Shown in pieces: positions 18,469 to 38,066 of a stretch of 64,000 nucleotides of DNA (position 1 is its first letter; the number at the start of each line of letters is the position of its first letter). The DNA lies in contig NZ_CP019389.1 in the NCBI RefSeq assembly GCF_001971785.1, positions 1,933,001 to 1,997,000 of the forward strand. Reading direction: 5' to 3'. The DNA is from Seonamhaeicola sp. S2-3. Its GTDB lineage: Bacteria > Bacteroidota > Bacteroidia > Flavobacteriales > Flavobacteriaceae. The notes beneath the pieces were generated by a model. It searched no databases and was not told where the DNA came from. It saw nothing but the letters and a program-made list of their open reading frames with translations. The translations under genes were made by a program, and so were the position numbers.

Positions 18469-18575
18469 TTGACGGAAAACGTCAAGGAAGTTAACACTGC
18501 CTTTAGCATTTTTTATTTATGCTGATTTTAATTAGCATAAAAGAGGTTGCAATCAGTCAAATCTTTCCTCTGTTG
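18469..18575 (-). promoter_or_regulatory. SAM-II-like riboswitch in the metK leader, with downstream hairpin
   Basis: On the minus strand: stem P1 AGAGG (18567-18571) / CCTCT (18542-18546). Its loop holds GATTTGACTGATTGCAA. An A/T-rich linker with a small hairpin (ATGCT/AGCAT) follows, then the conserved-looking TGCTAAAGGCAGT. ACTG in the P1 loop can pair with CAGT (plus 18496-18499), forming the pseudoknot expected of SAM-II. A perfect hairpin TTGACG-TTTTC-CGTCAA (18469-18485) follows, about 26 nt before the start codon. I matched this to SAM-II from memory of its core (GATTTG...TTGCA...GCTAAAGG); a covariance search was not possible. Confidence 0.7.
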
Positions 18576-18585
18576 TTACAGGGGG

Positions 18586-28899: not shown

Positions 28900-28929
28900 T
28901 TGTGTAATTCATAATTAGTTGTAATTTTG
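28900..28929 (+). promoter_or_regulatory. Promoter of the arginine/proline operon leader
   Basis: TTG (28900-28902), a 19-nt spacer and TAATTTTG (28922-28929), a perfect TAnnTTTG box. Transcription should begin near 28936-28940, giving a leader of about 285 nt before the first gene. Confidence 0.7.
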
Positions 28930-28940
28930 CTGCTTATATT

Positions 28941-29133
28941 AACGAAAGGGGCTCACGCCGACGATTTAGAGTTAATAGTTAAGATAGTTATTCAGTGAAA
29001 ACAGGAAACAACATATCTCTTATCTCTTTTGTTCTAGTAAACACTACTAGAGCTGTTGTTGTGCGTTTTCCTCAACCACGCCCCTAAGGGGCTATTCAGT
29101 TTAAGAAAGCATCCGCTGCTTTCAATTTTCGTT
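28941..29133 (+). ncRNA. Candidate structured leader RNA of the arg/pro operon
   Basis: The segment is bounded by AACGAAA (28941-28947) and TTTCGTT (29127-29133), which pair. Inside are a stem GAAAAC/AACAAC with GTTGTT/GTTTTC around a symmetric internal loop, a perfect hairpin TCTAGTA-AACAC-TACTAGA and the hairpin GCCCCTAAGGGGC. A final hairpin GAAAGCA-TCCGC-TGCTTTC is followed by AATTTT. AGGGGC occurs twice (28947-28952 and 29087-29092) and both copies can pair with the single GCCCCT, so two folds compete. No Arg-rich leader peptide and no ATG are seen. It may be a regulatory leader or an interspersed structured repeat. Confidence 0.5.
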
Positions 29134-29224
29134 ATTATTTAGAATATAAAAAGTACAAAGCTTAAAGGCTTAATTAAATGCTTAAAGTTTAATTAGTTCT
29201 TAAGTGTTTAATAATTATTGAAAA

Positions 29225-29812
29225 ATGAATTCAATATTGAATATAGATAAAAATATTGTGGTTGAGGAAGCTAAGTCCTATTGTGATTTACAAGGTTTAG
29301 AAGTTGTTTTTACTTATGAGATTTCAAAAACTAATTTGCAGATAATCTCAGAAAGAACAAAAAATCTTCCTGCAATGTATCATGCCAGTGTAGGTATGTT
29401 ACAAGATCGTTTAAAAAATGGTTGTTATCTTTTAATGAAAGATGGCGAAATCTATGGGCATATTTTTGCTCATAGGCATACTATTGATAAATATTCGGTT
29501 TTTGAGCGCTCGTCTTTGTGGGTGCATAAAGCTTACAGAAACCATAATTTAGGACTACTTTTAATGGATTGCTTAACCAAAAAATTCTCTAAAGAATTTC
29601 TTATTTCAATAGCTCAAGATGCTACTGTGCACCACAACAATGAGTTATTAGGTATGCAGTTTATTACGCTAAAAGATTTGTCTCCAGTTTTAATTGAAAC
29701 CTTAGAAAAACTAGGTAAGCTAAGAGACGAATACAAATACAAATATTACGTTAATCCATATTTCGAATCTAAAATAAATCAATTTAATAAGATTCTTAAA
29801 AATAAAATTTAA
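29225..29812 (+). CDS. GNAT-family N-acyltransferase; candidate N-acylglutamate synthase
   Basis: 195 residues, GNAT fold. The acyl-CoA-binding segment is seen as SSLWVHKAYRNHNLGLLLMDCL (about residues 98-119), preceded by CYLLMKDGEIYGHIF. It lies 9 nt upstream of argG and is the first gene of an arginine operon that has neither argA nor argJ. The missing first step, N-acylation of glutamate (acetyl or succinyl), is thus best explained by this gene. The role is inferred from context; sequence alone says only GNAT. Confidence 0.7.
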   Translation: MNSILNIDKNIVVEEAKSYCDLQGLEVVFTYEISKTNLQIISERTKNLPAMYHASVGMLQDRLKNGCYLLMKDGEIYGHIFAHRHTIDKYSVFERSSLWVHKAYRNHNLGLLLMDCLTKKFSKEFLISIAQDATVHHNNELLGMQFITLKDLSPVLIETLEKLGKLRDEYKYKYYVNPYFESKINQFNKILKNKI

Positions 29813-29821
29813 TTAATTACA

Positions 29822-30997
29822 ATGAAAAAGTTAGTTATAGCCTACAGTGGCGGCTTAGATACATCATATTGTGCGGTAAGTTTATCAAAAGAATATGAAG
29901 TACATGCAGTAAGTGTAAATACAGGAGGATTTACCCAAGCAGAAATAGATCATATAGAAAGTAACGCCTATAAAATGGGGGTTGCTACCTACAAAAACAT
30001 TAATGCCATAGCTACGTTTTACCAAAAAGTAGTAAAGTATTTAATTTTTGGTAACGTATTAAAAAACAATACCTACCCATTATCGGTTAGTGCAGAACGT
30101 ATTATTCAAGCTATTGAAATTGTAGAATACGCTAAAAGTATAGGCGCAGAATATATTGCTCATGGAAGCACAGGTGCAGGAAATGATCAAGTAAGGTTTG
30201 ATATGATTTTTCAAACTTTAGCACCAAATATTAAAATTATAACACCCATTAGAGACGAGCAATTAACCAGACAACAAGAAATAGACTATTTAAAGGAAAA
30301 TGGTATTGATATGTCTTGGGAAAAAGCAAAATACTCCATTAACAAAGGACTTTGGGGAACTAGTGTTGGTGGTGCCGAAACCTTAACTTCAGAAAAACCA
30401 TTACCAGATGAAGCGTATCCGTCGCAATTAAAACACGCCGAAGAAGAAAAAGTTAAGCTTACATTTAATAAAGGTGAGTTGGTAGCTGTAAACGGTGTAG
30501 AAAACAATCCTGAAGTTAATATTGAAGTGTTAAACAATTTAGCATCGGGCTATGCTATTGGTAGAGATATTCATGTAGGCGATACTATAGTAGGTATTAA
30601 AGGTAGAGTAGGGTTTGAAGCTGCAGCTGCCTTAATTACTATTAAAGCTCATCATTTATTAGAAAAACACACATTAACTAAATGGCAATTACAACATAAA
30701 GAATACATAGCAAGTTTTTATGGTATGCATTTACATGAAGGGCAATATTTAGACCCTGTAATGAGAGATATGGAAGCCTTTTTACAAAGCAGTCAAGAAA
30801 AAGTAACTGGCGATGTAACTGTAACATTAAAACCTTACCATTTTGATTTAGATGGTATTAGCTCTGAACACGATTTAATGAGTGCTAAATTTGGTAGTTA
30901 TGGTGAAGAAAACAAAGCGTGGACAGCAGATGACGCTAAAGGATTTATTAAAATTCTTGGAAATCAAAATAAAATATATCAACAGGTAAATAGTTAG
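29822..30997 (+). CDS. argG: Argininosuccinate synthase
   Basis: 391 residues. The N-terminal ATP-pyrophosphatase P-loop is KLVIAYSGGLDTSYCAV. Citrulline and aspartate site segments (YIAHGSTGAGNDQVRFD, YSINKGLWGTSVGGAETL) follow. It joins citrulline and aspartate in the penultimate step of arginine synthesis. It sits second in the operon, 9 nt after the GNAT gene. Confidence 0.96.
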   Translation: MKKLVIAYSGGLDTSYCAVSLSKEYEVHAVSVNTGGFTQAEIDHIESNAYKMGVATYKNINAIATFYQKVVKYLIFGNVLKNNTYPLSVSAERIIQAIEIVEYAKSIGAEYIAHGSTGAGNDQVRFDMIFQTLAPNIKIITPIRDEQLTRQQEIDYLKENGIDMSWEKAKYSINKGLWGTSVGGAETLTSEKPLPDEAYPSQLKHAEEEKVKLTFNKGELVAVNGVENNPEVNIEVLNNLASGYAIGRDIHVGDTIVGIKGRVGFEAAAALITIKAHHLLEKHTLTKWQLQHKEYIASFYGMHLHEGQYLDPVMRDMEAFLQSSQEKVTGDVTVTLKPYHFDLDGISSEHDLMSAKFGSYGEENKAWTADDAKGFIKILGNQNKIYQQVNS

Positions 30998-31072
30998 TTA
31001 TTGGTTGTTAGTTGAAGGTTGAATTTTTAACCTAAAACTTACATCAATGCAAATAGCCAAAAGCTATATAAA

Positions 31073-32056
31073 ATGAAAAAAATACAAGTTGGAATTATTG
31101 GTGGTGCTGGTTATACTGCCGGAGAATTAATAAGATTGTTAATTAACCACCCTGAAGCCGAAATAGATTTTGTTTACAGTACAAGTAATGCTGGTAACCA
31201 AATTAGTAAGGTACACCAAGATTTAGTAGGTACGTTAAATAAAACCTTTACAGATACTGTAAACCCTAATGTAGATGTGTTATTTTTATGTTTAGGGCAT
31301 GGTAATTCGGTTAAGTTTTTATCGGCTAACAAATTTTCTGATAACACTAAAATTATTGACTTAGGAAATGATTTTAGATTGGAAGCCGATAAAGTTTTTG
31401 AAGGAAAAACTTTTGTTTATGGGTTACCAGAACTTAATAAATCTGATATAGAATCTGCCAATTATATTGCCAACCCAGGTTGTTTTGCTACCAGTATTCA
31501 GTTAGGGTTGTTGCCTTTGGCAAATGCAGGTTTGTTACATAAAGATGTGCATATAAATGCGGTTACAGGCGCTACAGGTGCAGGAACTTCATTGTCTGCT
31601 ACCACACATTATACCTGGAGAGATAACAATTTTTCATATTATAAACCCTTTACGCATCAGCATTTAGGAGAAATCAATCAATCGGTAAAACAATTGCAAA
31701 ATAGTTTCAATTCAGATATTTTATTTATGCCGAATAGAGGAAATTTTTCAAGAGGTATTTTTGCAACCATTTATACTGATTTTGAAGGTACTATTGAAGA
31801 AGCTAAAACTATTTATAAAGAGTTTTATAAAGATGCTGTTTTTACTTTTATAAGCGACGATTTTTTACATCTTAAACAGGTAGTAAACACCAATAAATGT
31901 TTAGTGCATTTACATATACACGAAGGTAAATTATTAATAACCAGTATTATTGATAATTTATTAAAAGGTGCATCGGGGCAAGCGGTTCAGAATATGAATT
32001 TAATGTTTGGCTTAGAAGAAACCACAGGTTTAGAATTAAAAGCAACATATTTTTAG
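31073..32056 (+). CDS. argC: N-acyl-gamma-glutamyl-phosphate reductase
   Basis: 327 residues. N-terminal NADP-binding GIIGGAGYTAGELIRLL, active-site cysteine in YIANPGCFATSIQLGL, and HQHLGEINQS. It reduces N-acylglutamyl phosphate to the semialdehyde. Family substrate is the N-acetyl compound; in Bacteroides the route uses N-succinyl intermediates, so acyl specificity here is open. An interspersed repeat lies between it and proC. Confidence 0.95.
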   Translation: MKKIQVGIIGGAGYTAGELIRLLINHPEAEIDFVYSTSNAGNQISKVHQDLVGTLNKTFTDTVNPNVDVLFLCLGHGNSVKFLSANKFSDNTKIIDLGNDFRLEADKVFEGKTFVYGLPELNKSDIESANYIANPGCFATSIQLGLLPLANAGLLHKDVHINAVTGATGAGTSLSATTHYTWRDNNFSYYKPFTHQHLGEINQSVKQLQNSFNSDILFMPNRGNFSRGIFATIYTDFEGTIEEAKTIYKEFYKDAVFTFISDDFLHLKQVVNTNKCLVHLHIHEGKLLITSIIDNLLKGASGQAVQNMNLMFGLEETTGLELKATYF

Positions 32057-32066
32057 AGAAACAGTG

Positions 32067-32152
32067 GTGCGTTAGCGATTGATGCGGTATCCTTTTTTTG
32101 AGGTACGAGAAAAAAGATATAGCGGAAAGCGCGACCCCTTGTGGGTAACGCC
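32067..32152 (+). repeat. Flavobacterial interspersed repeat, copy A
   Basis: Starts GCGTTAG(C)GATTGA and ends CGGAAAGCGCGACCCC...GGGTAACGCC; near-inverted ends (TGCGTTA / TAACGCC) and an inner hairpin (TATCC-T-run / A-run-GATA). The same frame of conserved blocks with a different middle occurs at 58551-58640. It lies in the argC-proC gap. Confidence 0.65.
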
Positions 32153-32173
32153 ATAAAAATAAAAAAACGAAGC

Positions 32174-32968
32174 ATGAAAATAGCCATTATAGGAACAGGA
32201 AATTTAGGTAGTTCTATAGCTAAGGGACTTATTAAAAACAAGTCGTTCACCTCTTTGTACTTAAGTGATAAAAATACGTCTGCGGTTAAAAGTTTTGAAG
32301 ATGAAGATTATGTAACTATTACCAATTACAACAAAGAAGCGGTAATGAATTCTGATGTCATAATTTTTGCATTACAACCAAAGCATGTAGAAAGTGTATT
32401 AGAGGAAGTAGAATCTGTAATTACCAAAAAACATTTAATTATGTCGGTAGCCGCAGGATTTGCCATTTCTAAAATAGAAAGTGTTATTGGAGTCGATAAA
32501 CACATTATTCGTGTTATGCCTAATACGGCCATTTCTATTGGGAAATCTATGACTTGTTTGTCGCCCAATGCAATAGGTGAGGAAAAAATAGAGCTTGCTA
32601 AAACCATTTTTAACCAATTAGGAACTACTATGGTAATTCCAGAAGAGCAAATACAGGCAGCAACGGTTATTTGTGCTAGTGGTATTGCTTTTTGGATGCG
32701 TTTAGTACGTGCTACCACACAAGGTGCTATTCAGTTAGGTTTTGAGGCAGAAGAAGCGCATCAGTTAGCACTACAAACCTGTTACGGGGCGGCTAGTTTA
32801 TTAAAAGAATCTGGAAGACATCCTGAAGCAGAAATTGATAGGGTAACTACTCCAAGTGGTTGTACCATTGCGGGGTTAAATGAAATGGAACATCAAGGAT
32901 TGAGTTCTGCTTTAATACAAGGAATTAACGCTTCTTTTGAAAAAATTAATGAAATAAAAAACGGTTGA
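32174..32968 (+). CDS. proC: Pyrroline-5-carboxylate reductase
   Basis: 264 residues from ATG 32174, which begins MKIAIIGTGNLGSSIAKGL. The earlier in-frame ATG at 32141 lies inside the repeat and adds unrelated residues. NADP-binding GTGNLG and the conserved C-terminal VTTPSGCTIAGLNEMEHQG are clear. It makes proline from pyrroline-5-carboxylate. Its presence among arg genes couples proline and arginine synthesis. Confidence 0.94.
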   Translation: MKIAIIGTGNLGSSIAKGLIKNKSFTSLYLSDKNTSAVKSFEDEDYVTITNYNKEAVMNSDVIIFALQPKHVESVLEEVESVITKKHLIMSVAAGFAISKIESVIGVDKHIIRVMPNTAISIGKSMTCLSPNAIGEEKIELAKTIFNQLGTTMVIPEEQIQAATVICASGIAFWMRLVRATTQGAIQLGFEAEEAHQLALQTCYGAASLLKESGRHPEAEIDRVTTPSGCTIAGLNEMEHQGLSSALIQGINASFEKINEIKNG

Positions 32969-32981
32969 TAGCGCTTTTATT

Positions 32982-33038
32982 AAGCAGTAAGCAGTAAGCA
33001 GTAAAGCAGTAAGCAGTGAGTAGTGAGCAGTGAGTTGT
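32982..33038 (+). repeat. Heptanucleotide tandem repeat (AAGCAGT)
   Basis: Eight units of 7 bp, four of them in perfect pairs or triplets (AAGCAGT), later ones drifting to GAGTAGT, GAGCAGT, GAGTTGT; one extra A after unit three. It lies between proC and argD inside the operon and contains no gene. Confidence 0.85.
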
Positions 33039-33081
33039 AACTAGCTACCATCAACCTATTAACAAATAACAACAAGAAAAA

Positions 33082-34206
33082 ATGCCATTATTTGACGTTT
33101 ATCCATTATATAATGTAACACCCGTTTCGGGTAAAGGTATTCATGTGTACGATGATAAAGGAACAGAATATCTAGACCTTTACGGTGGGCACGCCGTAAT
33201 TTCTATTGGGCACGCGCACCCAAATTACGTAGCAGCAGTTAGCAAACAAGTTGAAACATTAGGGTTTTATTCTAATGCTATTCAAAATCCGTTACAAAGG
33301 CAGTTAGCCAATAAGTTAGAAACGCTTTCAGGTTGTAAAGATTACCAATTGTTTTTGTGTAATTCTGGTGCCGAAGCTAATGAAAATGCGCTTAAACTAG
33401 CATCTTTTAAAACAGGAAAGAAACGTGTTGTAGCTTTTAGTAATGGCTTTCACGGACGTACATCGGCGGCGGTTGCTGTAACCGATAATAAAAACATTAT
33501 AGCACCAATTAACGCGCAACAAGCGGTAACCATTTTACCTTTAAATGATGTTGACGGTGTAAAAACCGAATTAGAAAAAGGTGATGTTTGTGCGGTTATT
33601 GTTGAGTTTATTCAAGGTGTAGGAGGCTTAGACCAAGGGAGTAAAGAATTTTTTGAGCAAGTTTTTGCACTTTGTAAAGCCAATAACACCATGTTTATAG
33701 CCGATGAGGTACAGTCTGGTTACGGGCGTTCGGGTAAATTCTTCGCGTTTCAGCATTATAATGTAACGCCAGATATTATTTCAATAGCTAAAGGTATGGG
33801 CAATGGTTTTCCTATTGGGGGTGTGTTAATTCATCCAGATATTGAAGCTAAATACGGTATGTTAGGTACCACTTTTGGAGGAAATCATTTGGCTTGTGCT
33901 GCAGGATTAGCAGTATTGGATACTATTGAAGAAGAACATTTAATTGATAATGTAAACGAAATGTCTGAGTGTTTTATTGAAAAATCAAAAGATATTTCTG
34001 AGATAAAGAATGTTAAAGGGCGTGGGCTAATGCTTGGTTTAGAATTTAACTTTGAAGTTAGCGAATTACGAAAAAAACTAATTTACAATCATCATATTTT
34101 CACTGGTGGCGCAGCAAACAAAAAGTTACTAAGAATTTTACCGCCTTTAAATATTGAAAAATCACATATCAATCAATTTTTTGATGCCTTAAAAAAGGTG
34201 TTATAA
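33082..34206 (+). CDS. argD: N-acylornithine aminotransferase (class III)
   Basis: 374 residues. PLP class III aminotransferase: LDLYGGHAVISIGHAHP, NSGAEANENALKLAS, FHGRT, FIADEVQSGYGRSGKFFAFQ and the Schiff-base Lys in ISIAKGMGNGFPIGG. It converts N-acylglutamate semialdehyde to N-acylornithine. An ornithine aminotransferase (RocD) role is possible but less likely beside argC, argB and argF'. Confidence 0.92.
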   Translation: MPLFDVYPLYNVTPVSGKGIHVYDDKGTEYLDLYGGHAVISIGHAHPNYVAAVSKQVETLGFYSNAIQNPLQRQLANKLETLSGCKDYQLFLCNSGAEANENALKLASFKTGKKRVVAFSNGFHGRTSAAVAVTDNKNIIAPINAQQAVTILPLNDVDGVKTELEKGDVCAVIVEFIQGVGGLDQGSKEFFEQVFALCKANNTMFIADEVQSGYGRSGKFFAFQHYNVTPDIISIAKGMGNGFPIGGVLIHPDIEAKYGMLGTTFGGNHLACAAGLAVLDTIEEEHLIDNVNEMSECFIEKSKDISEIKNVKGRGLMLGLEFNFEVSELRKKLIYNHHIFTGGAANKKLLRILPPLNIEKSHINQFFDALKKVL

Positions 34207-34292
34207 AAAGTTTAACAAAAAATTATAAAGCTAAGTTCTGCATACAAAAAGAATAATTGTAGAATATAAGCTAAACAATAAAAAAAGAAGAA

Positions 34293-35489
34293 ATGAACAC
34301 CTTACTATCTATTGAAAAAAGAAACGCTGTTTTGTTAAAAATGGCAAAACTTTTAGAAGCAGAAAGGCAAGCAATTATTGAAATTAATAAAGTTGATTTA
34401 GAATCGTACCAAGGCGAAGATATTTCTATGTACGATCGTTTAAAAGTAGACGATTCTAAAGTTGATGAGATGATAAAATCTGTTAGTCATTTGGCGTCTC
34501 AAGAAGATCCAGTTGGTGTAGAGCGTTTTAGTTTTAAGCACGAAAACGGCATGCAGGTTTACAACAAAACCGCATCGTTTGGTACGGTATTAATTATTTA
34601 CGAATCAAGACCCGATGTTACCGTTGAGGCTGCAGGTATTGCCTTTAAATCAGGAAACAAAATTCTTTTAAAAGGTGGTAAAGAATCGTTGCGTTCTAAC
34701 CTAAAAATTGTGGAACTGTGGCATCAAGCATTACAAGAAGTAGATGCATCAACCGATTGGGTAGAATATTTACAATTTAATAGAACTGAAACCCAAGCCT
34801 TTTTAGAAAAACCAACACAACCAGTAGATTTAATTGTACCTAGAGGAGGTGAACGATTAATTGCCTTTGTTAAAGAGCATGCAGCGTGTCCTGTAATTGT
34901 AAGTGGGCGTGGTAATAATTTTGTATATGTACATAAAGATGCCGATACATCAATTGCCTTGGATGTAATTGTAAATGGTAAAACCGCAAAAATTTCGGCT
35001 TGTAATGCTGTTGATAAAGTGCTAATTGATTCTAATCTGCCAAATAAAAATGAGTTTATAGAAGCATTAATTTCAAAATTGAAAGAGTTCAATGTTGAAA
35101 TTTTAGGAGATGATAAAACGTCAAGTTTTGAAGCTATTAACCCTTTTAATTCTGAAGACGTTTGGTTTGAAGAGTTTTTAGATTATAAAATTGTTATTGG
35201 TGAAATAGCATCTAACACCGATGCTATTGCTAAAATAAATAAGTACTCTGGCGGGCATTCGTCTTCTATTATTACTAAAGATGAGGCCGAAGCTAAAATT
35301 TTTATGGAAAATGTAGATACTGCTGCAGTATATCATAATGCATCTACCCGATTTACCGATGGCGGACAATTAGGTTTAGGAGGAGAGTTAGCCATTAGTA
35401 CAGATAAATTACACCAACGAGGGCCTATTGGGTTACAACATTTGGTAACCAATAAATGGTATATTTTTGGTAACGGACAAACCAGATAG
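34293..35489 (+). CDS. proA: Glutamate-5-semialdehyde dehydrogenase
   Basis: 398 residues, aldehyde-dehydrogenase fold: GTVLIIYESRPDVTVEAAGIAFKSGNKILLKGGKE, VPRGGERLIAFVKE and active-site Cys in TAKISACNAVDKVL. It reduces glutamyl-5-phosphate in proline synthesis. ProB follows after a single nucleotide, so the pair is tightly coupled. Confidence 0.95.
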   Translation: MNTLLSIEKRNAVLLKMAKLLEAERQAIIEINKVDLESYQGEDISMYDRLKVDDSKVDEMIKSVSHLASQEDPVGVERFSFKHENGMQVYNKTASFGTVLIIYESRPDVTVEAAGIAFKSGNKILLKGGKESLRSNLKIVELWHQALQEVDASTDWVEYLQFNRTETQAFLEKPTQPVDLIVPRGGERLIAFVKEHAACPVIVSGRGNNFVYVHKDADTSIALDVIVNGKTAKISACNAVDKVLIDSNLPNKNEFIEALISKLKEFNVEILGDDKTSSFEAINPFNSEDVWFEEFLDYKIVIGEIASNTDAIAKINKYSGGHSSSIITKDEAEAKIFMENVDTAAVYHNASTRFTDGGQLGLGGELAISTDKLHQRGPIGLQHLVTNKWYIFGNGQTR

Positions 35490-35490
35490 C

Positions 35491-36255
35491 ATGCAAAAGA
35501 AAAAGCGCATATTACTTAAAGTAGGGTCTAATACTTTAACTAAAGAAACCGATAATATTTCCAGAGGAAAGATTGAAGATATTGCAAATCAAATCACGAA
35601 ACTTCAAGATACTTGTGAGTTTATTGTAGTGAGTTCTGGCGCTATTGCAGTAGCAAAACAGTTTGTGAAATTAGAAAGTAAACGCAAAGAAATTTTTGTA
35701 AAACAAGCGTTGGCATCTATTGGGCAGCCGCATTTAATTAGAATTTACCAAGAAATTTTTAGAGAATATGGCCTTTTAAGTTCACAGTGTTTATTATCGT
35801 ATTCAGATTTCGAAAAAGAAGAAAGTATTGTAAACATAACCAATACCATTAACGTTTTGGTAAATAACAATTATATTCCCATCATTAATGAAAACGATAC
35901 GGTAGCTACCGATGAAATTAAATTTGGCGATAATGATAAACTGGGAGCCTTAACAGCATCACTTTTAAACGCCGATTTGTTTATTATTGCAACAAACACA
36001 AACGGTATTTACACCAAAAGTTCTATGGAAAATGGTACACCAAAAACCATAGAACAGGTGTCAGATTTTGAAGCTTTAAAAGCTCAAGTTGTTAATTCTA
36101 AATCCTCACATGGCAGCGGTGGTATGCAAAGTAAAATTGAAGCTGCCGAGGTTACTAAAAAAGCAAATATTGAAACATGGATAGTAAACGGTTTAGAAGA
36201 TAATTTTATTTTGAACGCCATGAAAAACAAGGTGCCGTTTACCAAAATAATATAA
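35491..36255 (+). CDS. proB: Glutamate 5-kinase (short form, no PUA domain)
   Basis: 254 residues from ATG 35491, 1 nt after the proA stop. The upstream frame overlaps proA and is not used. Amino-acid kinase fold: ILLKVGSNTLTKE, FIVVSSGAIAVAK, INENDTVATDEIKFGDNDKLGALTA and GTGGM-like GSGGMQSKIEAA. The C-terminal PUA domain of enterobacterial ProB is absent, as in many Bacteroidota. Confidence 0.94.
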   Translation: MQKKKRILLKVGSNTLTKETDNISRGKIEDIANQITKLQDTCEFIVVSSGAIAVAKQFVKLESKRKEIFVKQALASIGQPHLIRIYQEIFREYGLLSSQCLLSYSDFEKEESIVNITNTINVLVNNNYIPIINENDTVATDEIKFGDNDKLGALTASLLNADLFIIATNTNGIYTKSSMENGTPKTIEQVSDFEALKAQVVNSKSSHGSGGMQSKIEAAEVTKKANIETWIVNGLEDNFILNAMKNKVPFTKII

Positions 36256-36262
36256 ATTTAAA

Positions 36263-37201
36263 ATGAAGCATTACACATCTATACACGATATTGATAACAT
36301 CAATGCTTGGATTGAAGAAGCAAAGGTTTTAAAAGCAAATCCGTTAGAGCATATAGAGTTAGGGAAAAACAAAACCTTAGGGTTGTTATTTTTTAATTCT
36401 AGTTTGCGTACACGTTTAAGTACCCAAAAGGCGGCTTTAAATTTAGGAATGAATCCTATTGTTATGAATGTGTCTGGCGATGCTTGGGGCTTAGAATTTG
36501 ATGATGGTACTATTATGAACGGCAGTACTGCCGAACACATTAAAGAAGCTGCAGCCGTAGTGTCTCAATATTGTGATATTATTGCAGTAAGAGCATTTCC
36601 AACTTTAACAGACAAAGTAAAAGACGAAAGTGAACAGGTTTTAGAAGCTTTTAAAAAATACGCTTCTGTACCAATAGTAAATATGGAAAGTGCTACGGGG
36701 CATCCGTTACAAGCGTTAACAGATGCTATAACCATCTCAGAATATAAAAAAGTTGCAAAACCTAAGGTGGTTTTAACTTGGGCTCCTCATATTAAACCAT
36801 TACCGCATGCCGTAGCCAACAGTTTTACACAAGCAATGCAAAATATGGATGTAGAATTTGTAATTGCAAATCCTGAGGGATACGATTTAAATCCCGAAAT
36901 TACGGGCAATACACCAATTTATCACAACCAAGAAGAAGCTTTTAAAGATGCCGATTTTGTTTATGCTAAAAATTGGAGTTCTTATGAAGATTACGGAAAA
37001 GTAATAAAGTCTGATGCAGAATGGTTGATTACTAAAGATAAAATAGGTGATGCAAAGTTTTTACATTGTTTACCTGTAAGACGAAATGTAGTAGTAGAAG
37101 ATGCTGTTTTAGATAGTGATAGCTCATTGGTAATAGAGGAAGCTAATAATAGAACCTTTGCGGCACAATTAGTATTAAAGAAGCTTTTAGAAAATAAATA
37201 A
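36263..37201 (+). CDS. argF': N-acylornithine carbamoyltransferase (ArgF' type; succinyl- or acetyl-ornithine)
   Basis: 312 residues. Carbamoyl-phosphate motif FFNSSLRTRLSTQ (the S-L-R-T-R of the AOTCase/SOTCase branch), HPLQALTDA and LHCLPVRRN. The specificity loop reads MNGSTAEHIKEA with Ala90. Xanthomonas AOTCase has Glu (residue 92) and Bacteroides SOTCase has Pro (residue 90) at the matching place, and small residues there favour the succinyl substrate in published mutants. It carbamoylates N-acylornithine rather than ornithine. Alignment was by eye. Confidence 0.9.
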   Translation: MKHYTSIHDIDNINAWIEEAKVLKANPLEHIELGKNKTLGLLFFNSSLRTRLSTQKAALNLGMNPIVMNVSGDAWGLEFDDGTIMNGSTAEHIKEAAAVVSQYCDIIAVRAFPTLTDKVKDESEQVLEAFKKYASVPIVNMESATGHPLQALTDAITISEYKKVAKPKVVLTWAPHIKPLPHAVANSFTQAMQNMDVEFVIANPEGYDLNPEITGNTPIYHNQEEAFKDADFVYAKNWSSYEDYGKVIKSDAEWLITKDKIGDAKFLHCLPVRRNVVVEDAVLDSDSSLVIEEANNRTFAAQLVLKKLLENK

Positions 37202-37203
37202 CC

Positions 37204-37276
37204 TGTCATTGCCAATAAAATGAAGCAATCTCAATCTATGAATAGATTACCTCGCCATAAAATTCTTATAATGACA
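37204..37276 (+). repeat. Interspersed palindromic repeat between argF' and argB
   Basis: Ends TGTCATT (37204-37210) and AATGACA (37270-37276) are inverted copies. The inner hairpin AATCTAT-GA-ATAGATT and the words GAAGCAATCTCA and CCTCGCC identify the GTCATTGC-type repeat frequent in Flavobacteriaceae. It fills the 85-nt gap. Confidence 0.65.
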
Positions 37277-37286
37277 AAAGTTTAGG

Positions 37287-38066
37287 ATGAAAGAAAAATT
37301 ATCAGTAGTAAAAATAGGAGGAAATGTTATTGAGGATAGTGAAGTTTTAAAAACATTCCTTGAAAATTTTTCTAATTTAGAAGGAAAGAAAATTTTGGTT
37401 CATGGTGGCGGTAAACGCGCTACTCATATAGCATCAAAATTAGGAATAGAGTCTAAAATGATAAATGGAAGACGTATAACAGATGCCGATACTTTAGAAG
37501 TAATTACTATGGTTTATGGTGGTCTGGTAAATAAAAATATAGTAGCTCAATTACAAGCTTTAAATATTAATGCTTTAGGGCTTACTGGAGCAGATATTAA
37601 TAGTATTACGTCTAAAAAAAGACCTGTTAAAGAAATAGATTTTGGTTTTGTAGGCGATGTAGAATCGGTTTCACATAATGCTATTAATAAATTAATTCAG
37701 GCAGATTTTACACCAGTATTTTGCGCCATTACGCATGATAAAAATGGACAGTTATTTAATACAAATGCCGATACAATAGCATCGGAATTAGCAATTGGCC
37801 TTTCAAAATTATATAATATTGAATTGTACTACTGTTTTGAAAAAAATGGCGTTTTAATGACTGTTGATGACGATAATTCGGTTATAGATTATATGGATTC
37901 TGGAACTTATGAAGTTTTAAAACATAAGGGCGTTTTTCATGATGGTATGTTACCTAAATTAGAAAATTGTTTTCATGCTTTATCAAGTGGTGTATCAAGA
38001 GTTTTTATTGGAAATCCATCAGTAATAAGTGATAAAAAACAAAAGTTTACAACCTTGTATTTATGA
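37287..38066 (+). CDS. argB: N-acylglutamate kinase
   Basis: 259 residues, amino-acid kinase fold: SVVKIGGNVIED, LVHGGGKRATHIASKLG, TNADTIASELA and SGVSRVFIGNP. It phosphorylates N-acetyl- or N-succinyl-glutamate, the usual arginine feedback point. Its stop overlaps the argE start by 4 nt (ATGA), a sign of translational coupling. Confidence 0.94.
   Translation: MKEKLSVVKIGGNVIEDSEVLKTFLENFSNLEGKKILVHGGGKRATHIASKLGIESKMINGRRITDADTLEVITMVYGGLVNKNIVAQLQALNINALGLTGADINSITSKKRPVKEIDFGFVGDVESVSHNAINKLIQADFTPVFCAITHDKNGQLFNTNADTIASELAIGLSKLYNIELYYCFEKNGVLMTVDDDNSVIDYMDSGTYEVLKHKGVFHDGMLPKLENCFHALSSGVSRVFIGNPSVISDKKQKFTTLYL

Follow-up and report, generated by a model that had tools for sequence, protein, structure and literature searches.

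The arginine/proline operon in the 64,000-nucleotide stretch of DNA analysed here (the window) is preceded by a leader RNA that is probably a leader-peptide attenuator of the flavobacterial arg family in which an invariant RNA hairpin at the 5′ end has taken the place of LP1, the first, Arg-codon-sensing module. The leader is real and occurs in a single copy, and wherever its position was tested it belongs to the arginine operon. Much of it resembles a leader-peptide attenuator, since its ORF has homologs in an arginine leader-peptide family that is widespread. A new regulatory RNA had been predicted from the sequence, as a possibility, at this position. The conserved leader found before the arg operon only agrees with this, but its properties are mostly those of a leader-peptide attenuator, not of a free-standing riboswitch. 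The possible new sensor could be the 34-nt 5′ element, which the prediction had not singled out; this hairpin might represent a novel type of arginine control. No earlier description of this flavobacterial arginine leader family was found in the literature searched. The features along the window are:

28900–28929, + strand: promoter of the Bacteroidetes type, TTG-N19-TAATTTTG (from sequence; like pair in 21/27 element-bearing loci)
28937–28977, + strand: hairpin of the 5′ element (pattern searches, fold prediction, UNCG loops in relatives)
28982–29018, + strand: hairpin around the GTG start, 28982–28989/29010–29018 (98.1% of cells paired in 20 leaders)
28995–29087, + strand: putative leader ORF with GTG start, VKTGNNISLISFVLVNTTRAVVVRFPQPRP-stop, LP2 homolog (frame conservation, homology)
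29031–29053, + strand: hairpin E inside the ORF, 29031–29038/29046–29053 (covariation)
29080–29092, + strand: hairpin G, GCCCC-TAA-GGGGC, spanning the leader stop codon (best stem in 13/20 leaders)
29105–29123, + strand: hairpin F, GAAAGCA/TGCTTTC, then AATTTT (covariation)
29124–29141, + strand: U-rich tail with TTTCGTTA at 29127–29134 (complementary to 28940–28947, helix Pa)
29225–38066, + strand: operon of GNAT, argG, argC, proC, argD, proA, proB, argF-like (N-acetylornithine carbamoyltransferase) and argB (ORFs; Pfam/NCBIfam)

Promoter and operon

The window belongs to a genome consisting of a single contig of 3.75 Mb, and the relatives searched here are Flavobacteriaceae, going by the named loci. 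The promoter was found as originally described, with TTG at 28900–28902, an N19 spacer and TAATTTTG at 28922–28929. Between the promoter and the operon start at 29225 lies a leader of about 295 nt. A TTG plus TANNTT(T/A)(G/A) pair was present upstream of 21/27 element-bearing loci, compared with 25/800 background 75-nt segments. Of these 21 positive loci, 20 allow a spacer of 19, with 11–12 nt between the end of the box and the element. The pair was missed in six loci, i.e., L041 and all five loci tested of a second element-bearing clade (see below).

Operon genes were named from Pfam and NCBIfam, with the exception of proB, which was assigned from its translation. The argF-like gene (36263–37201, + strand) scored 300.7 bits as N-acetylornithine carbamoyltransferase at a cut-off of 288, and this sequence-based identity suggests an acetylated route to arginine. 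The slot between leader and argG (29225–29812 in the window) is occupied by one of two different types of acetyltransferase-like protein. One type is found in the window and in L017–L027, the other in L068–L070 (translated) and L139–L141 (by eye); the window's protein had no NCBIfam match. Two Rfam families were seen elsewhere in the window: a Flavo-1 RNA (48.3 bits) between argC and proC within the arg operon (32067–32140, + strand), and a SAM-II riboswitch with a long loop (56.4 bits) at 18493–18576 (− strand).

A search for ArgR (PF01316) found none in this genome and none in 10 of the 11 relatives tested, i.e., ArgR was present in one of 12 genomes; the control search was positive in 9 of 14 known genomes. 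With none detected here, ArgR control of the operon was rejected; the same negative result, together with the overall count of 1/12, makes control at the RNA level plausible. The same-genus genome G005 (C6:20181–24103) has a second argG, 49% identical, about 2.6 kb from an ArgR gene and alongside its argG preceded by LP1 and LP2.

The invariant 5′ hairpin

The core of the 5′ element is invariant over 34 nt (28941–28974). It reads AACGAAAGGGGC-NNNN-GCCGACGATTTAGAGTTA, and its 30 fixed letters were identical in all 88 loci analysed, which represent 87 distinct leaders with argG as low as ~63% identical. The tetraloop alone varies, in 23 forms over the 88 loci. The hairpin consists of P1 (28937–28943/28971–28977), an AAA/UUU helix (28945–28947/28965–28967) and a GGC/GCC stem (28950–28952/28957–28959) capped by the variable tetraloop (28953–28956), which is UCAC in the window. 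G/AGA and GG/GACGA remain unpaired.

UNCG tetraloops stabilise RNA. They were found in 40/87 distinct leaders with a chance expectation of 4/256 forms, a count that is not independent since the leaders are related. By group, 36/54 loci of the second clade, 4/12 distant window-type loci and 0/22 loci nearest the window have them. Because such loops stabilise RNA, it is very likely that GGC-NNNN-GCC forms a stem in the RNA, and a hairpin at the RNA level is strongly suggested for the leader 5′ end. RNAfold predicted the same kind of hairpin for element pieces from both clades; its folding energy by itself was not unusual (z −1.74 to +0.44). The P1 strands are UAUUAAC/GUUAAUA in the window and UAG-U-UAAC/GUUACUA in the second clade. 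Pairing of P1 is hence preserved despite changes on both outer strands, as one between-clade change for which a bulge is needed. No double change was counted in this hairpin on the fixed alignment, and the inner pairs are beyond a covariation test.

The pattern AACGAAAGGGGCNNNNGCCGACGATTTAGAGTTA, allowing a maximum of three mismatches, was searched for in 397 genomes of the family. It occurred in 19 genomes, at one place each and always with 0 mismatches; the reversed control gave 0 matches in the same genomes. Matches without a mismatch were also obtained in 60/66 genomes of one distant genus and in 5/5 genomes of another. All matching genomes contain one copy of the element, and in the window's genome the leader gave one full match, with a next best match of 19 nt. 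In the originally proposed check of arg leaders of other Flavobacteriaceae, the element lay upstream of argG in 22/22 and 27/27 loci tested for synteny, the latter set with argG 62–93% identical. These counts exclude 39 further element loci, for which ~600 nt each were retrieved.

Moreover, 11 loci were found via the GNAT protein. Eight of them have an alignable leader before it and come from Algibacter, Flavivirga, Jejuia, Hyunsoonleella and uncultured Flavobacteriaceae; the remaining three (L025–L027) have Arg-rich leader peptides and no element. BLAST of the leader against the 397 family genomes yielded 21 matching genomes, 14 of them near-full-length (including L035, with 173/199 bases covered), five with the first 39 bases only and two short (L047, L048). 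The short matches were dropped, likewise L016. A covariance search for the 5′ element matched nine of 296 order genomes, with full matches at E below 1e-16 in the family genomes G000 and G165 only. The other seven matches (21–28 bits) were taken as chance; the best of these, L144, looked coding by eye. Element-bearing leaders occur in two types. One is that of the window, which has hairpins E and F; the other is the second clade (54 loci), in which peptides mostly end near RRFRRP and an AGGUG-type hairpin is present in 51/54 loci by a loose pattern.

Leader peptide, tandem leaders and folds

According to the original prediction, the leader had no Arg-rich leader peptide. This needs correction, as the GTG ORF (28995–29087) contains three Arg codons and the relatives' versions are plainly Arg-rich. 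The ORF has 30 codons with three Pro codons in addition, and ends ...VVVRFPQPRP-stop (TAA at 29085–29087), i.e., with Arg-Pro-stop. Over 20 leaders, drawn from 22 near leaders after removal of near-duplicates, its frame had 0 stops and 0 indels, compared with 50 and 24 stops in the other two frames. Arg29 (CGC or CGT) and Pro30 were kept in 29/29 leaders of an alignment that covers 29 of the 34 window-type loci and leaves out two near-duplicates and the indel-bearing L207, L208 and L225. Among the latter, L208 and L225 retain Arg-Pro-stop, and L207 lost the terminal Arg and the stop. Distant copies from another genus read METSVKTGNHISIISSTL...VVRFPVRRP-stop. In-frame 12-nt deletions were present in 2/12 of these distant copies, and in 1/12 a compensated +1/−1 frameshift restored the terminal ...FPVNRP-stop.

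The ...VVRFPVRRP-stop peptides are intermediates between the window's ORF and the FPRRP-stop end of LP2, the second leader peptide of relatives lacking the element. The window peptide itself ends Q-P-R-P-stop, not Arg-Arg-Pro-stop, and the intermediates end V-R-R-P-stop in another genus. Judged by its sequence, the window ORF is a homolog of LP2, not a typical LP2 member. We found no purifying selection on amino acids: pN/pS was 1.15 in the 20 near leaders (0.53 and 0.76 in the other frames) and 0.82 in the deeper comparison of 29 leaders (0.70 and 0.76). The ORF is hence regarded as putatively translated on the grounds of frame conservation and homology, not of substitution statistics. An arrest peptide with a conserved sequence was unsupported in the window type, where pN/pS is about 1, and a further frame seen by eye, which overlaps from upstream and stops at the GTG, was rejected, since L013 has a 1-nt insertion there. 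In L209, the upstream ATG frame is gone and the GTG frame is kept. Arg codons are few for a codon counter, three in the window ORF and one in the relative L039, and the usual stop is read past in 2/22 near relatives (L036, L040). As end-product codons the window has R-F-P-Q-P-R-P, relatives have clear Arg runs, and the window type shares one invariant Arg-Pro.

For comparison we analysed 63 argG loci without the element, i.e., 60 from the argG match list, chosen among the more similar matches with known element carriers left out, and three of the window's genus. Most of them have two short ORFs, LP1 and then LP2, at the same place before argG. These tandem leader peptides are Arg-rich. LP1, for example MKNLKNKIRCTTPGLPMRRRRCI-stop, is followed by a T run mostly 28–43 nt past its stop. 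LP2 ends FPRRP-stop, and the Pro preceding Arg-Arg-Pro uses all four codons. An Arg-Arg-Pro-stop end was found in 51/63 loci; 47 of these 51 have AGGUGNGNCC starting 26–29 nt from the stop codon. A crude classifier applied to 66 loci called LP1 with a run of at least five T in 53, LP2 (for which GGG after the stop was needed) in 49 and both in 36, with a few of the LP1 calls being really LP2-like (L129, L132, L136). A loose scan for hairpin terminators covered two loci, L080 and L107. It found none at LP1, and its sole match, in L107, was the LP2 stop hairpin; the T run and stems seen by eye suggest termination at LP1. The exact LP2 signature occurred in 17/326 order genomes, all of this family (control pattern, 1 match). 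By coordinates it lies upstream of argG in 14 of the 17, and the other three are outside the argG list. A hairpin with the conserved loop AGGUGNGUCC was seen in the LP2 region of L079–L141, 26–29 nt from the LP2 stop and with no constant U-tract. It had no Rfam match in the eight loci bearing it among 20 scanned, and on reading the sequence it is absent from window positions 29088–29224.

Both arrangements exist within single genera. In the window's genus, G000, G001, G004 and G006 carry the element, and G002, G003 and G005 carry LP1 and LP2. In the second genus, with the element in 60/66 genomes, three of the six genomes without it lack an argG match (55–89% complete). The other three have argG; in them LP1, as translated by eye, is rich in Arg and the AGGUG hairpin is present. 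Two of the three show the exact LP2 end pattern, and the end of L230 has diverged. In the two genera, all argG-bearing species without the hairpin thus have LP1 and an LP2-type region (6/6). Since LP1 and the hairpin alternate in this way, the comparison of sequences places the element where an arginine-codon attenuator stood, i.e., the element occupies its place. The argG tree, weakly supported at the nodes that matter here, did not enter any count of losses or transfers.

The RNA of positions 28932–29135 folds at −56.5 kcal/mol compared with −39.8 ± 4.25 kcal/mol for shuffled sequences (z −3.93, 0/200), in agreement with the structured leader originally proposed. In the local structure, 20 cells were changed on both sides (5.8 ± 2.3 in shuffles, 0/500) and five pairs had a double change (2.8 in shuffles, 14/500); the types of standard pair showed no excess over shuffles (278/500). 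Slid versions of the structure paired in 36–45% of cells, the true structure in 99%. Both perfect hairpins of the prediction are present, TCTAGTA/TACTAGA at 29033–29039/29045–29051 and GAAAGCA/TGCTTTC at 29105–29111/29117–29123, and both covary among the 20 leaders. Three pairs of hairpin E and two of hairpin F changed on both sides. The covariation check proposed with the prediction hence gave a positive result for E and F. The stems of the 5′ hairpin and the long-range helices hardly vary, so that covariation is uninformative for these helices. At greater depth, hairpin E had 29 distinct best stems in 34 loci, assigned by an automatic rule that may choose a wrong stem in a few loci, e.g., L225, and hairpin F had altered stems in 10/12 distant leaders. 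Changes in the GTG-start hairpin were on one side only (20 leaders). For hairpin G, a different stem scored longer in the remaining 7/20 leaders.

AGGGGC occurs twice (28947–28952, 29087–29092) and GCCCCT at 29080–29085, as had been noticed, and GCCCC of hairpin G could instead pair with GGGGC at 28948–28952. The distal pairing proposed from this was disfavoured as the main switch: the predicted probability of the GGGGC/GCCCC helix was 0.00 in the window with a mean of 0.03 over 20 leaders, and no double change was found among the leaders compared. The favoured long-range helix is Pa, formed by TAACGAAA (28940–28947) and TTTCGTTA (29127–29134), and TTTCGTTA was present in 20/20 near leaders, 2/12 distant window-type leaders and 0/54 leaders of the second clade. 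Mutually exclusive folds, as originally envisaged, are possible in the leader. Pa had a predicted probability of 0.99–1.00 with a masked ribosome or none; with Pa near 1, the thermodynamic model puts local P1 near 0. Simple thermodynamics hence does not show a ribosome-gated switch, because Pa is predicted to be stable at any ribosome position. AATTTT does follow the last hairpin, F, but passes as a terminator in a loose scan only, and the U-tract 3′ of hairpin F is degenerate in several relatives.

Known systems, competing explanations and meaning

The original view that the leader belongs to no known riboswitch class is in line with the Rfam covariance search, in which no family scored above its gathering cut-off within the leader. 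A permissive scan gave three weak matches, the best of which by E-value (Lysine, 12.1 bits, E 0.97, cut-off 30) was rejected as noise, and 20 related loci gave 0 matches. We know of no established natural arginine riboswitch. In the open-licence literature, with most subscription papers outside it, we found no description of the element or of tandem arginine leaders, and the phrase "arginine riboswitch" came up only with an abstract on magnesium and RNA stability.

Attenuators of the trp and his type are ribosome-mediated transcription attenuators, and Bacteroid-trp is an attenuator. With the trp/his type the window leader shares a short ORF with end-product codons, overlapping alternative hairpins and a place upstream of a biosynthetic operon; it differs in its few control codons, its weak terminator and the invariant 5′ hairpin that replaces the first attenuator. 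Like the tandem LP1/LP2 leaders, it lies before GNAT-argG, has an ORF homologous to LP2 and places the stop codon within a CCC...GGG hairpin. Unlike them, it lacks LP1 and the AGGUGNGUCC hairpin and has the 5′ element and hairpin F. In F. psychrophilum, clues for leader-peptide attenuation before amino-acid operons have been described (PMC9723704), in a paper whose main text mentions arginine solely in connection with cyanophycin. A catalogue that also contains Flavo-1 (PMC2864571) gives Bacteroid-trp (RF01692) as a Bacteroidetes motif with a likely cis-regulatory role. The same catalogue describes the Downstream-peptide motif, likewise a small conserved RNA preceding a short ORF; this and the glnA motif are cyanobacterial, and the window leader matches no Rfam family. 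By description, orf34 in the Salmonella speF leader is similar in being a short ORF with arginine codons inside a long leader, where ribosome pausing chooses between mRNA folds (PMC6386406). It differs in that speF is an ornithine decarboxylase gene and the outcome involves Rho and RNase G. The leader ORF of Staphylococcus aureus rbfL also senses arginine via Arg codons (PMC13009471), but blocks translation of a biofilm regulator, and the passages of that source describing rbfL name no such RNA element.

In the leader-peptide attenuator proposed here, a shortage of charged tRNA would slow the ribosome at the end of the ORF, on the Arg/Pro codons of R-F-P-Q-P-R-P-stop. The switching strand would be the 5′ strand UUAACGAAA(GGGGC), common to the local 5′ hairpin and to distal partners, i.e., the U-rich tail beside hairpin F in the window and the Arg-Arg-Phe-Arg codons in the other clade. 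The position of the ribosome, possibly together with a ligand on the 5′ hairpin, would then choose the fold, and the fold would decide whether or not RNA polymerase goes on to argG.

The role of the element within the leader can be read in several ways. The leader may be a plain ribosome-mediated attenuator, with the element as a multi-partner pairing strand or as a structure for 5′-end stability or translation start; this we rate as a serious possibility that stays below even. CGAAAG-G-GGC can indeed pair with the Arg-Arg-Phe-Arg codons in 38/54 second-clade loci by a strict pattern and in 42/54 by a looser one admitting mismatches, and the strict pattern fits 0/50 LP2 ends without the element. 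Also, GGGGC complements GCCCC in the window, and UAACGAAA complements UUUCGUUA. A multi-partner strand would change slowly. However, the partners vary and differ between the clades and the element does not, and some of its invariant letters (GACGAUUUAGAG) have no constant partner outside the hairpin. Alternatively, the element could be a ligand-binding aptamer that works as a small riboswitch next to a leader peptide now vestigial, with arginine, ornithine, an acetylated intermediate, proline or a nitrogen signal as candidate ligands. Such a role fits its 30 fixed letters, its internal loops rich in purines (GG/GACGA and G/AGA) and its free capping loop, which is UNCG in 40/87, as well as its replacement of the arginine-sensing module and the sharing of its 5′ strand with a distal helix adjoining a U-rich tract. 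On the other hand, it stands before one operon only, and aptamers are often reused; its stems are just the AU-rich P1 and a 3-bp GGC/GCC, its inner pairs have no confirming double change and it has no Rfam relative. We hence consider an aptamer rather unlikely. Slightly more doubtful is the specific proposal that the hairpin is a new natural aptamer of very small size, binding arginine or another metabolite of the arginine/proline pathway, and that before this same operon it has traded places with an attenuator that counts codons, in two genera or more.

A protein-binding site, for an RNA-binding protein or for a DNA-binding regulator just past the promoter, would account for the extreme sequence constraint and for the distance of 11–12 nt from the −7 box, constant in 20/27 loci tested. 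We regard it as improbable, as a folded RNA is favoured by the UNCG loops and by P1, in which both strands have outer changes between the clades and pairing is kept by means of a bulge, ArgR was not found in this genome, and DNA operators are rarely so invariant. A structured interspersed repeat, originally named as the main alternative, or a functionless chance structure can practically be dismissed: the element has one copy in this genome and one in every matching genome, always precedes argG where tested and is deeply conserved.

For Flavobacteriaceae without ArgR, these results indicate a family of leader RNAs, usually with two tandem Arg leader peptides. Within single genera, the attenuator appears to have been exchanged for an invariant RNA element, which amounts to a natural replacement experiment. 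If the aptamer reading is true, one operon would have two physically different ways of sensing the same amino acid.
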